This document shows positions 8,901 through 14,905 of a stretch of 45,483 nt of DNA, one piece after another (positions within the stretch are counted from its first letter, which is position 1; every line of letters begins with the position of its first letter). The position numbers were made by a program, and so were the translations under genes. The DNA is taken from assembly GCA_900318405.1 (NCBI GenBank), contig ONKP01000009.1, positions 1 to 45,483 on the forward strand, given 5' to 3'. The stretch is from an uncultured Eubacteriales bacterium (GTDB lineage Bacteria > Bacillota > Clostridia > Lachnospirales > Lachnospiraceae). The notes beneath the pieces are model-generated. The model did no database searches, was not told where the DNA came from, and was given only the letters and a program-made list of their open reading frames with translations.

Positions 8901-8980
8901 AACTGTATAATGTTATTCATGAACCACCGGTTTATGCATTGATAAAAGATGAAGTAACAGGCGGGCAGCAGGACGGAATG

Positions 8981-11671
8981 ATGGAAAAACATCTGGTTAC
9001 AGGAATACTTGCACATGTGGACGCGGGAAAAACAACGCTTTCGGAGAGCATGCTGTATATATCGGGGGCTATCCGGAAGCAGGGCCGTGTGGATCACGGA
9101 GATTCCTTTCTGGATACGAACCACATGGAGCAGGAGCGCGGCATTACAATCTTCGCGGGACAGGCACAGCTGACATATGGCGACATGTGTCTGACGCTGC
9201 TTGATACGCCCGGCCATGTGGATTTTTCTCCGGAGATGGAGAGAACGCTGATGGTGCTCGATGCGGCTGTTCTCGTGATCAGCGCACCGGACGGAGTAAC
9301 CGGTCAGGTGAAGACACTCTGGAAGCTGCTGAATTATTATGAGATCCCTGTTTTTCTGTTCGTCAACAAGATGGATCAGGATGGCATGGATCCTGCGCTG
9401 ATCATGCAGGAACTGAAGCGTGAGCTCGGCAGTGCCTGCGTGCGTTTTCAGGGACCGCAGATCACGCCTGAAAATGAAGAAGATATTGCCGTCTGCGATG
9501 ACGGACTTCTCGAACGCGTGCTGGGAGGAAAGCCGGTAACGGATGAGGACGTCTGCCGCCTGGTCGCCGGACGGCGTATGTTTCCTGTGTGCTTCGGTTC
9601 CGCATTGCATAACGAGGGCGTCAGGGAACTGCTTGAGGTGATCGGCCGATATTCTGCGGATCCGCAGTGGCCGGAGGAATTATCTGCGCGTGTTTTCCGT
9701 ATCACACATGATGATAAAGGCAACCGTCTGACCTGGATGAAGATCACGGGAGGAACGCTCCATGTAAAAGACGTCCTGCCGGGTGGATCAGAGCTCCGCA
9801 AGGTCGATCAGATCCGCGTCTATGCGGGCAGGACATTCACTGCTGTACAGCAGGCAGAAGCCGGGACGGTCTGTGCGGTACTCGGGTTTTCGGATACCCG
9901 TGCGGGCGAGATCATAGGAAACGGCGGCGATGAAAATGGTGAGCCGCCGATTCTTCAGCCTGTTTTTACAAAAAGCATTCTGATGGAACCGGATGAGGAC
10001 AGATCACGCGTGCTGCACTGCCTGCAGATGTTGGAAGAGGAAGATCCGATGCTCCATGTGCGTTCGGATCCGAAGACTGGGGATCTGACCGTCCAAATCA
10101 TGGGCGATGTGCAGACGGAGATTCTTCAGAGAGAGGCAGAGGAGCGGTACGGAATCAGGATTGGATTCGGACCGGCTTCGCTGGTCTATAAGGAAACAAT
10201 CGCTGCGCCAACCGAGGGGGTGGGCCATTATGAGCCTCTCCGCCACTATGCGGAGGTGCATCTGCTCCTTGAGCCGGCCAGTCGCGGCACGGGACTTACG
10301 TTTTCTTCTGTGCTGAGCACGGATGTGCTGTCACTGAACTGGCAGAAGATGATCCTGTCGGTGCTGGAGAGCTCTGAACTTTGCGGTGTACTTACAGGTG
10401 CAGGTGTCACAGACCTGCACGTGACGCTGATCGGCGGCAGAGCGAGCGAAAAACATACGGAGGGCGGTGATTTCAGGCAGGCAACACTGAGGGCGTTCCG
10501 CCAGGGGCTGATGATGGCGGAGAGTATTCTGCTGGAGCCCTGCTATGATCTCACGGCTGTTATCCCTTCGGAAAACAGCGGGCGCTTTCTCACGGACATC
10601 CGTCGGATGGACGGGACTGCTGAGGTGACGGCTTCTGACGGTAAGACAGATGAAATTTCAGGCCGCATACCTGCCGCTTCCCTCGGCGACTATGCGGCAG
10701 ATGTGCGTGCCTATACCCATGGGGCAGGGTCAGTTTCCGTATCACCGGGCGCCTATGAGCCGTGCCGGAATCCGGAGGATATCATTCTTGCCTCCGGTTA
10801 TGATCCGGAGGCCGATCTTGAAAATACACCGGATTCCGTTTTCTGCTCTCATGGCGCAGGCATGGTTATTCCATGGGATCATGTACGCGAATACATGCAT
10901 GTGGATACGGGATTCCGCTTTCCGTCTGCCAATTCTGATCAGGAGGAAAAGACGTCATCGGCCGAAACAGTGTCGGATGGTTACGGAGATCAGACACGGG
11001 GACTGACGCCCGGCGAAATTCAGAGCAGAAAAAAGAGCGCCGGCAGTGATGACTGGCATGCGGAGGAGCGAAGAAGGGCTGCCGGTGAGGAAGAACTGAA
11101 GCGCATCTTTGAACAGACCTATGGAGAGGGATCATGGACGACGCCGCTGCATAATGAACAGAATGAAAGAAATGCACTGGCGGGGATCCGGTCAGGCAGT
11201 GAGAAAAAGCCGCATATTCCCGGCAGGAAGAAAACAGGAAAGGACGATTACCTTCTGGTTGACGGGTACAACATTATTTTTGCCTGGGAGGAACTCCGGG
11301 AGCTCGCTTCCCGCAATCTGGATGCGGCGAGAGACAGACTGATCGAGGTGCTTGAGGGATTTCAGGGTACCCGGAGCGGATACCTGATCCTCGTCTTTGA
11401 TGCTTACAAAGTTCGCGGCGGTCAGCGGGAAGTTTACCACAGAGCCAATATGGACATTGTGTATACGAAAGAGGCGGAGACAGCAGACACTTACATCATG
11501 AAGACAGCGCATAACCTGAAAGACAAGGGAAATGTCACGGTAGCCACCTCGGACGGCATCATCCAGATGATCATCTTCGGTGCCGGTGCCCGTCGAATGT
11601 CGGCGCGGGAACTTGAGGATGAGGTCATACAGTCTGCGGAGGATCTCCGCAGCAGGTACAACCTGGAGTGA
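8981..11671 (+). CDS. EF-G/TetM-like translational GTPase fused to Rae1/YacP-like NYN endoribonuclease
   Basis: An 896-residue fusion. The N-terminal part is a ribosome-binding GTPase of the EF-G/TetM/TetO class: G1 AHVDAGKTT (11-19), switch ERGIT (52-56), DTPGH (75-79), NKMD (129-132) and a G5-like GSAL, then translation-factor domains II to V ending near residue 640. A charged linker (about 650-754) follows. Residues 755-896 are a NYN/PIN-fold nuclease closely like B. subtilis Rae1 (YacP): LLVDGYNIIFAW, LVFDAYKVRGG, YTKEAETADTYI, VATSD, FGAGARRMSAREL, with the acidic residues retained. Rae1 is known to cut mRNA in the ribosomal A site during translation; the fusion would bring such a nuclease to the A site on a GTPase. 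Starts at 8978 or 8981 follow AGGACGGA; a TTG at 8939 is less likely. Tetracycline resistance is possible by homology but not the simplest reading. Confidence 0.87.
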   Translation: MEKHLVTGILAHVDAGKTTLSESMLYISGAIRKQGRVDHGDSFLDTNHMEQERGITIFAGQAQLTYGDMCLTLLDTPGHVDFSPEMERTLMVLDAAVLVISAPDGVTGQVKTLWKLLNYYEIPVFLFVNKMDQDGMDPALIMQELKRELGSACVRFQGPQITPENEEDIAVCDDGLLERVLGGKPVTDEDVCRLVAGRRMFPVCFGSALHNEGVRELLEVIGRYSADPQWPEELSARVFRITHDDKGNRLTWMKITGGTLHVKDVLPGGSELRKVDQIRVYAGRTFTAVQQAEAGTVCAVLGFSDTRAGEIIGNGGDENGEPPILQPVFTKSILMEPDEDRSRVLHCLQMLEEEDPMLHVRSDPKTGDLTVQIMGDVQTEILQREAEERYGIRIGFGPASLVYKETIAAPTEGVGHYEPLRHYAEVHLLLEPASRGTGLTFSSVLSTDVLSLNWQKMILSVLESSELCGVLTGAGVTDLHVTLIGGRASEKHTEGGDFRQATLRAFRQGLMMAESILLEPCYDLTAVIPSENSGRFLTDIRRMDGTAEVTASDGKTDEISGRIPAASLGDYAADVRAYTHGAGSVSVSPGAYEPCRNPEDIILASGYDPEADLENTPDSVFCSHGAGMVIPWDHVREYMHVDTGFRFPSANSDQEEKTSSAETVSDGYGDQTRGLTPGEIQSRKKSAGSDDWHAEERRRAAGEEELKRIFEQTYGEGSWTTPLHNEQNERNALAGIRSGSEKKPHIPGRKKTGKDDYLLVDGYNIIFAWEELRELASRNLDAARDRLIEVLEGFQGTRSGYLILVFDAYKVRGGQREVYHRANMDIVYTKEAETADTYIMKTAHNLKDKGNVTVATSDGIIQMIIFGAGARRMSARELEDEVIQSAEDLRSRYNLE

Positions 11672-13669: not shown

Positions 13670-13683
13670 GTCAGCTGTTTTTT
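13651..13683. terminator. bidirectional terminator between convergent genes
   Basis: A-run plus CAGCTGA (13658-13664) pairs with TCAGCTG (13671-13677) plus T-run; the loop TGTAAG contains the TetR stop. The minus-strand stop (TGA at 13671-13673) lies in the other arm, so both genes end inside one hairpin. A degenerate duplicate of the right arm with its own T-run follows at 13691-13707. Confidence 0.92.
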
Positions 13684-14750
13684 GCGACGTCAGTCGGCTG
13701 TTTTTTGTGCTTTGGCAGTGCTATCTCAAACAGCTGGCGCAGGGAGACCGTATGGCGGAAATCGGTAATGACGCCATTGTTTGTGCGGATGTCTCCGTTT
13801 TCAAGAAGCTCCAGGTAAAGGCCTTCCTCATCTTCGGAAACAGTTTTGTATACCTGCATACTGTCACTGACGGCATCAAAAAGCACGATCGGGTACTCGG
13901 GGTGCATCCTTTCATTCCTGCAGAATTTGGCGACACGGCGGCAGTTGCGCGGGCTGCACGTGTCATCGCTGATCAGAAGGGCAAAGGCAGGGGACAGGCT
14001 GGCAAGCGACGCTACCTTGCTGCCGCTGATCCAGTCGGCGGCATCCTCATTGCTGTAGAAAGCGTAAACACTGTAAAGGGATTTCTGTTTCTTCATGGCT
14101 GATACATTGTGCTCGGTCGTTGCCACATCGATCGGAAAGAGAAACATGGTATTGGTGCACTGCCGGATGGCGGCCAGATCACATTCCCTGAGCAGATAGT
14201 CCGGCATGACCAGCATGAAGGCGCAGTCGTGGAAGGAAGAGATCACATCGCAGAGCTCCCGAAGACAGGAACAGTTTCCTGAAATGCGGATCGTATAAAT
14301 ATAGATACCCATCATCTGACCCTGTACAATGCAGTTGTTGATCTCATCGACAGTCAGTGTTTCAGGAATCTGAGGGTCAATCCGGAGGTTCAGACACCAG
14401 GGAATATGGTAATTGACGGTTGCCTCAATATCACGGATTTTCTTCCCGCCGAAGGTCAGACCGCAGTAGCCGAAATTGATGCCGAAATCCTTGATGTTCT
14501 GACGGGAAGTGTTGCGCAGTGTGTTTTCAATCGTAGTATAATAAGGACTCTCGTCGTTGCGCAGCAGATCCTGGACCATACCGAGGATTTCGTCCAGAAA
14601 GCGGCCCTTGTTGAACATGCGGGCCATGTCGGTCAGCTTTCGAAGACTTCTTTTCGGGTCTTCCTCGATCTCGCGGATACCGCGGTCGACGGTAGAATCA
14701 ATAATGGCCTTGGTTATGGGATTGGGATGTTCTGAAGAATTCATTGACAT
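13671..14750 (-). CDS. radical-SAM-like protein lacking the iron-sulfur motif
   Basis: A 359-residue protein whose frame matches a family of clostridial radical SAM proteins I recall: a helical N-terminal region, an IPW..N.RIDP strand (116-126), an LTVDEINN helix, QGQMMGIYIYT (143-153), HPDC-like FHDCAFM, and a C-terminal LELLENGDI block followed by SLRQLFEIAL. In active members the RIDP strand leads into CxxxCxxC and the YIYT strand into GGEP. Here RIDP runs directly into QIPETLTVDEI with about 18 residues and all three cysteines missing, and GGEP is replaced by RISGN. It should not bind the cluster and is probably a pseudoenzyme. ATG 14750 follows AAGGAAATAC; a longer frame to 14843 lacks a site. 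Role unknown. Confidence 0.7.
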   Translation of the reverse strand: MSMNSSEHPNPITKAIIDSTVDRGIREIEEDPKRSLRKLTDMARMFNKGRFLDEILGMVQDLLRNDESPYYTTIENTLRNTSRQNIKDFGINFGYCGLTFGGKKIRDIEATVNYHIPWCLNLRIDPQIPETLTVDEINNCIVQGQMMGIYIYTIRISGNCSCLRELCDVISSFHDCAFMLVMPDYLLRECDLAAIRQCTNTMFLFPIDVATTEHNVSAMKKQKSLYSVYAFYSNEDAADWISGSKVASLASLSPAFALLISDDTCSPRNCRRVAKFCRNERMHPEYPIVLFDAVSDSMQVYKTVSEDEEGLYLELLENGDIRTNNGVITDFRHTVSLRQLFEIALPKHKKQPTDVAKNS

Positions 14751-14905
14751 GTATTTCCTTCCATATTTATACTCTGTACGTGCACTTTCGACGTCAGTCA
14801 AAACTTTTTCCGTGCACAGCAGATGATGACTTTTAACAGTCATTATAAAGCGATTGATCCGGAAGTCATAGGGACAGATTTCCGTGTCTGCCTGAAAATT
14901 TTTGC

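Follow-up and report, generated by a model that had tools for sequence, protein, structure and literature searches.

The stretch of DNA analyzed here (the window) comprises 45,483 nucleotides of contig ONKP01000009.1 from an uncultured Eubacteriales bacterium of the Lachnospiraceae (GenBank assembly GCA_900318405.1), and it carries a gene in which a translational GTPase is fused to a Rae1/YacP-type NYN nuclease. The gene occupies a single open frame, 8939-11671 (+), of 910 codons counted from a TTG at 8939, with ATG codons at 8978 and 8981 and the stop codon at 11669-11671. From its N-terminus, the encoded protein consists of a five-domain EF-G/Tet-type GTPase, a C-terminal helix, a flexible charged linker and a Rae1/YacP NYN domain (Table 1). 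Scanning with hmmscan against Pfam recovered the full EF-G domain set (GTP_EFTU at 174 bits, EF-G D2, III, IV and EFG_C) followed by NYN_YacP (PF05991), which matched residues 772-907 of the window protein (P0001) with 146.8 bits against a cut-off of 24.6. This is the sole NYN_YacP domain in the source genome, which is 91.7% complete. A first-pass annotation of the window had claimed that GTPase motifs, translation-factor domains, a charged linker and the nuclease share one frame, and this proved correct: the window gene has no frameshift, and all of the 40 loci that we fetched, chosen for their long frame, likewise have the GTPase joined to the NYN in a single frame (L045 without its first ~55 residues in frame). 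Single-frame loci across other genomes rule out a sequencing or frame artefact. The same annotation had called the NYN domain complete. Its catalytic core is, but the protein lacks the C-terminal tail that free proteins usually have, so the Pfam match runs no further than position 138-143 of 166.

Table 1. Position of the fusion gene and its parts within the window.
Feature	Position	Strand	Basis or remark
Gene: KHT-type translational GTPase fused to Rae1/YacP NYN nuclease	8981..11671	+	ATG 8978 or 8981; frame open from TTG 8939
G domain (GTP_EFTU), motifs AHVDAGKTT, RGITIF, DTPGHVDF, NKMD	8987..9652	+	PF00009, 174 bits; conserved in alignments
Domains II and III (EF-G_D2, EFG_III)	9680..10168	+	Pfam
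Domain IV (EFG_IV)	10187..10519	+	Pfam and structure model
Domain IV tip loop K491-R499, KHTEGGDFR, in the place of TetM PVSTPADFR with Pro509	10451..10477	+	Alignments A1, A2, TetM
Domain V (EFG_C)	10529..10771	+	Pfam
Conserved Cys-bearing insertion (C595, C622) and C-terminal helix ending in H640, in the place of the TetM C-terminal helix	10763..10900	+	Alignments; helix 632-638 in model
Charged flexible linker, low model confidence, one predicted helix (residues 692-714, likewise low confidence)	10901..11242	+	
Short conserved linker motif EELxxIFExTYG	11087..11125	+	E705, I709, T713 nearly invariant in alignments
NYN_YacP (Rae1-type) nuclease domain; basic C-terminal tail of free proteins absent	11243..11668	+	Pfam, PDB match, alignments

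The first-pass annotation had also proposed a new factor, a claim that falls because the architecture is already in print. The part of Atkinson 2015 available to us (PMC4342817) reports a YacP-like NYN RNase domain gained by Tet proteins in ten clostridial species and suggests that these NYN-bearing proteins may represent a new, RNase-based resistance mechanism. The window gene fits this description (a Tet/EF-G-like GTPase with a YacP-like NYN, in Clostridia), and the published proteins, having the same architecture, are almost certainly the same family. There, the proteins of ten species were classed as Tet and a role in resistance was suggested, whereas here fusion-length frames were found in 129/392 genomes, with the GTPase outside the Tet clade. 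In the literature that we searched on the fusion and on Rae1, the fusion is described solely by Atkinson 2015; Condon 2018, on Rae1 distribution, may already mention it. The NCBI name on a Monoglobus member is 'translation factor GTPase family protein'. The window gene thus belongs to a known but little-noticed fusion, which is common in our sample and sits in a distinct GTPase subfamily. To the 2015 description we add this subfamily, a clade of fused GTPases, the near-exclusion of fused and free forms, a difference in their tails and a wide distribution.

We surveyed a sample of 392 genomes of the class, taking frame length as a proxy for fusion (at least 700 amino acids for fused, at most 230 for free). 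NYN_YacP was present in 251 genomes: solely in a frame of at least 700 amino acids in 129/392, and solely as a free protein of ~170 amino acids in 112/392. Both forms occurred together in one genome (G299). Fused and free NYN therefore almost never coexist, bearing out the first-pass prediction that fused genomes would lack free yacP. Second NYN hits in three genomes (G123, G184 and G220) fall below the family cut-off, as does a 27-amino-acid end piece in G307 that our script counted as free. Frame lengths were in between in eight genomes. Five of these were fetched, yielding pieces of both GTPase and NYN at L158, L161, L162 and L170 and a free-type NYN without GTPase in G301; the other three (G164, G196 and G311) were judged solely by their position near a contig end. 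L158 (G202:C1:1370537-1373245) lies in a single-contig genome, and its fusion frame is broken by in-frame stops, two of them reported by the tool as TAG. One stop falls near the end of the part matching window residues 14-280; the interruption may reflect either decay or TAG recoding.

The fusion spans many families and is common among gut bacteria. Across a genome collection, the best 80 of 590 confirmed loci each have a query match that starts no later than residue 31 and extends at least to residue 875, and 76 of these 80 pass the single-frame test of our script. The remaining four have a frame of 829-940 amino acids with NYN and fail the G1-motif pattern, two of them at contig edges. Full fusions among these best 80 come from Lachnospiraceae, Oscillospiraceae, Anaerovorax, Fusibacter and others. 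Within the source organism's family, 17 of the 18 sampled genomes have a fusion-length frame, and G221 has the free form; genus g33 has two fused genomes (one by length alone) and two free. A sample of the phylum (299 genomes) added at least 12 genomes outside the class with frames of 877-909 amino acids, by length alone.

A place covering at least 80% of the query was found in 2/72,556 plasmid records and 2/50,697 phage records, and given this rarity the idea of a mobile or phage gene is unsupported. The two phage records (H31 and H32; MT835563.1:5421-7958 and MT835514.1:15279-17759) are unannotated 'Bacteriophage sp.' entries from human faeces that encode 96-97% of the fusion at 45-47% identity to the window; they may be either host DNA in an assembly or a carried gene. 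Across 118 loci, the window included, we found no operon partner that could serve as a functional clue. The largest neighbor family, ABC-transporter-like by sequence, occurs at 15/118 loci in no fixed place, with three loci dropped by the script.

We then asked what kind of GTPase the fusion contains. The protein has the G domain and domains II-V of an EF-G-fold translational GTPase, as judged by five Pfam domains, the structure model and fold matches. It shares fold and GTPase motifs with EF-G and EF-G2, but its identity to the EF-G rows among the matches listed is 22-30%, and it scores 268 bits against the EF-G model, which needs 659. With TetM and TetO it shares the five EF-G-like domains and the C-terminal helix at 30-32% identity; it differs from them in its KHTEGGDFR tip (PVSTPADFR in TetM), in the Cys-bearing insertion before the C-terminal helix and in showing no sign of mobility. 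A PDB sequence search with the first 600 residues returned TetO and TetM as best matches, and the closest named models are those of Tet proteins (NCBIfam NF012153, tet_protect). These matches and the common fold are in keeping with the suggestion, published in the part of PMC4342817 available to us, of antibiotic ribosome protection plus an RNase: the GTPase would remove tetracycline or another drug, and the NYN would add an RNase step. We regard this as quite unlikely. The window protein scores 415.4 bits against tet_protect and five relatives (four unfused, one fused) score 393-432, so that six of six scanned members lie below the cut-off of 775, compared with 880 for a sample Tet(M) control. 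A tree built from 84 GTPases sets the subfamily (66 rows, one mislabeled by the script) apart from 18 Tet-like rows with support 100, across a branch 1.77 changes per site long, and unites the 41 fused rows in a single clade, also with support 100; this tree was made by a quick method, and long-branch and composition warnings apply to it. Pro509 of TetM, which sits in the drug site according to the accessible part of PMC8161019, aligns with Lys491 of the window protein. Lys occupies this place in 47/47 rows of alignment A2, where residues 491-499 are invariant; alignment A1 (27 rows) shows a nearly invariant K491 and a variable E494. Nor, as described above, does the gene show signs of mobility. 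Score, tree and drug-site residue thus indicate that the GTPase is not a Tet resistance protein and forms its own subfamily, and with gene context added they rule out a Tet resistance gene. The earlier label 'EF-G/TetM class' was too loose for a GTPase outside the Tet clade and without the drug-site proline of TetM. TetB(P), a candidate for the nearest resistance relative, was not shown to be so by the matches listed in our searches; one search, with 38 records, had no Clostridium record.

The Cys-bearing insertion is also found in aligned unfused members, as are both of its cysteines. C595, C622 and H640 show complete or nearly complete conservation in both A1 and A2, and H624 does so in A2 alone; the region may hold a metal site.

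Unfused members of the subfamily were sought with a fusion profile in 254 genomes (the 112 with free NYN, G307 and the 141 without NYN_YacP) and in two of the eight in-between genomes. They occur in at least 18/112 free-NYN genomes and at least 8/141 NYN-less genomes, at least 26 in total; these counts are floors, since at most 11-15 candidates were scored per genome in part of the search. Most lie in frames of 624-729 amino acids and score 690-897 bits, with a partial match in G153 and a match split over two frames in G215. Such unfused GTPases, with and without a free NYN in the same genome, are among the observations favoring passive joining, by which an ordinary Rae1 NYN and an independently working GTPase would merely be co-expressed through fusion; the linker and tail, described below, bear on the same alternative. 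Relatives of one unfused GTPase of the subfamily, at 42-53% identity, are carried by Ligilactobacillus salivarius megaplasmids (e.g., NZ_CP117984.1:127208-129082) and by Paenibacillus cellulosilyticus (NZ_CP054613.1:2094154-2096106). Among the L. salivarius records, some bear the name 'translation factor GTPase family protein' and others 'TetM/TetW/TetO/TetS family', which makes the resistance annotation look unreliable. Chromosomal or megaplasmid genes named 'TetM/TetW/TetO/TetS' may belong to this subfamily and have no part in tetracycline resistance.

The nuclease half, over its last 139 residues, matches B. subtilis YacP (chains 5mq8/5mq9) with E ~1e-23 in the PDB sequence search. D761, D807, D836 and D858 align with YacP and are invariant in A1 and A2, so the conservation of NYN acidic residues on which the first-pass reading depended holds. 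Among 117 fused proteins, 116-117 retain the NYN motifs, and both halves of the fusion are under purifying selection. According to the citing papers available to us, B. subtilis Rae1, characterized after 2015, is an A-site nuclease that acts on mRNA during translation. This activity argues against a role in ribosome maturation, in which the GTPase would guide the NYN to precursors of ribosomal RNA (rRNA) or transfer RNA (tRNA), or to 30S assembly intermediates, and so does the lack of NYN_YacP in 141/392 genomes. Such a role has precedents, NYN having been proposed for rRNA and tRNA maturation (Anantharaman and Aravind 2006, as cited in the part of PMC4342817 available to us) and the EF-G relative LepA having been linked to 30S assembly (PMC12787274, in its accessible part); we consider it very unlikely here.

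Rae1 shares its NYN family and acidic motifs with the fusion and acts in the A site as a free enzyme without a GTPase. Its free relatives usually end in a basic helix or tail, LEKxRR, whereas fused forms mostly do not. The tail is present in 36/41 free-labeled rows (these include L161 and L170, which are fragments of fused genes, and count two genomes twice) versus 3/119 fused rows, and in the tree subset in 36/37 free versus 2/43 fused rows, with a pattern widened post hoc to include L157. If Rae1 proper is taken as a stand-alone protein of ~170 amino acids with a LEKxRR tail, the tail being our own observation and no published criterion, the window protein falls outside it, being fused and tail-less. 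The accessible part of PMC6613710 presents R166P as a presumed loss-of-function allele of B. subtilis Rae1. By numbering, R166 would fall within the basic tail.

Modeled with AlphaFold from 47 sequences (mean predicted local distance difference test, pLDDT, 84; predicted template modeling score, pTM, 0.66), the window protein shows its domains, the NYN included, with good confidence; the linker at ~649-754, in which one helix is predicted, has low confidence. Structural matches of the model are led by EF-G entries, and Rae1 chains are absent from the 50 listed because the GTPase fills the list. In 117 proteins the linker is 67-148 residues long (median 80), and by length arithmetic no part of the A site lies beyond its reach. 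Its length, and its faster evolution than the domains in most pairs, agree with the passive joining considered above. Against this, the fusion recurs across many families with a shared linker motif, EELxxIFExTYG-like in 107/117 fused proteins (the pattern was tuned after a first version found 13), and the free-form tail is mostly gone from fused proteins, as expected if the GTPase took over targeting. We think passive joining unlikely.

A widespread, long-lived fusion of a GTPase with a nuclease points to GTP-controlled delivery. Domain IV of EF-G and TetM reaches the decoding center, and Rae1 uses the same A site as an EF-G-type domain IV. On balance, we hold it probable that the fusion is a ribosome-directed mRNA nuclease in one chain, whose GTPase brings a Rae1-type nuclease to ribosomes with a vacant A site in place of free Rae1. 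From anatomy and distribution we infer ribosome binding, GTP control and cleavage. Since domain IV and the nuclease claim the same site, they would have to act in turn. The GTPase in its GTP form would bind ribosomes with a vacant A site, placing its KHTEGGDFR tip in the decoding center; GTP hydrolysis and the departure of domain IV would then free the A site; and the NYN, tethered from the C-terminal helix by its linker of 67-148 residues, would enter and cut the A-site codon. The truncated mRNA would hand the ribosome to a rescue system such as transfer-messenger RNA (tmRNA). The near-exclusive distribution suggests that the fusion stands in for free Rae1 in these bacteria, and the loss of the tail agrees with targeting having passed from the tail to the GTPase.

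Several points weigh against this reading. Domain IV would be in competition with the NYN for the A site, a steric point missed by the first-pass annotation. Most sampled families are purely fused or purely free, so the near-exclusion partly reflects shared ancestry, and more than a third of the class genomes (141/392) have no NYN_YacP. Since the GTPase subfamily also occurs unfused, it has some role for which the nuclease is dispensable. No more than four tree-independent contrasts pair tail loss with fusion, one of them on well-supported branches; the tail argument thus rests on few independent events, and we give the link no p value. The literature that we searched contains no ribosome-binding, GTPase or RNase experiment on any member of the fusion. 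Finally, in a full-domain tree of the NYN half, a single free row (L166) sits inside an otherwise fused group, and the fused rows come out as one group in 18% of bootstrap trees. In a core-only tree, with tails removed and missed free rows added, free L157, L166 and L167, which carry the tail or a variant of it, lie inside the fused group, and the fused rows form one group in 0% of 200 bootstrap trees. An approximately unbiased (AU) test nonetheless does not reject one fused NYN clade (p-AU 0.169), so a single fused group for the NYN half is neither shown nor rejected. We considered fission in place of fusion, as G221, G238 and G145 have free NYNs that sit within the fused group; given the bootstrap and AU results, either direction may hold for these rows.

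Two of these genomes, both from the window's own order, have an unfused subfamily GTPase and, at a separate genomic location, a free NYN that groups with the fused NYNs (L157 and L177 in G221, L166 and L179 in G238). This arrangement is a two-gene version of the fusion.

If ribosome-directed cleavage is correct, the fusion bears on how bacteria pick the stalled ribosomes that are to be stripped of mRNA and on how Rae1 picks ribosomes, and GTP-controlled delivery is directly testable with a single purified protein. A bolder and distinctly more tentative version is a GTP-clocked surveillance nuclease. Here the KHT-type GTPase would time A-site vacancy by one hydrolysis cycle, so that solely persistently stalled ribosomes would receive the tethered Rae1; the fusion would have replaced free Rae1 and its putative docking tail across much of Clostridia, and the unfused KHT GTPases, as vacancy sensors that do not cut, would represent its older half. 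One chain would then join a stall sensor to an mRNA cutter.

Elsewhere in the window, a 390-amino-acid open reading frame with no Pfam match at E 0.001 (13671-14843, -) lies beside a gene for a TetR-type regulator.
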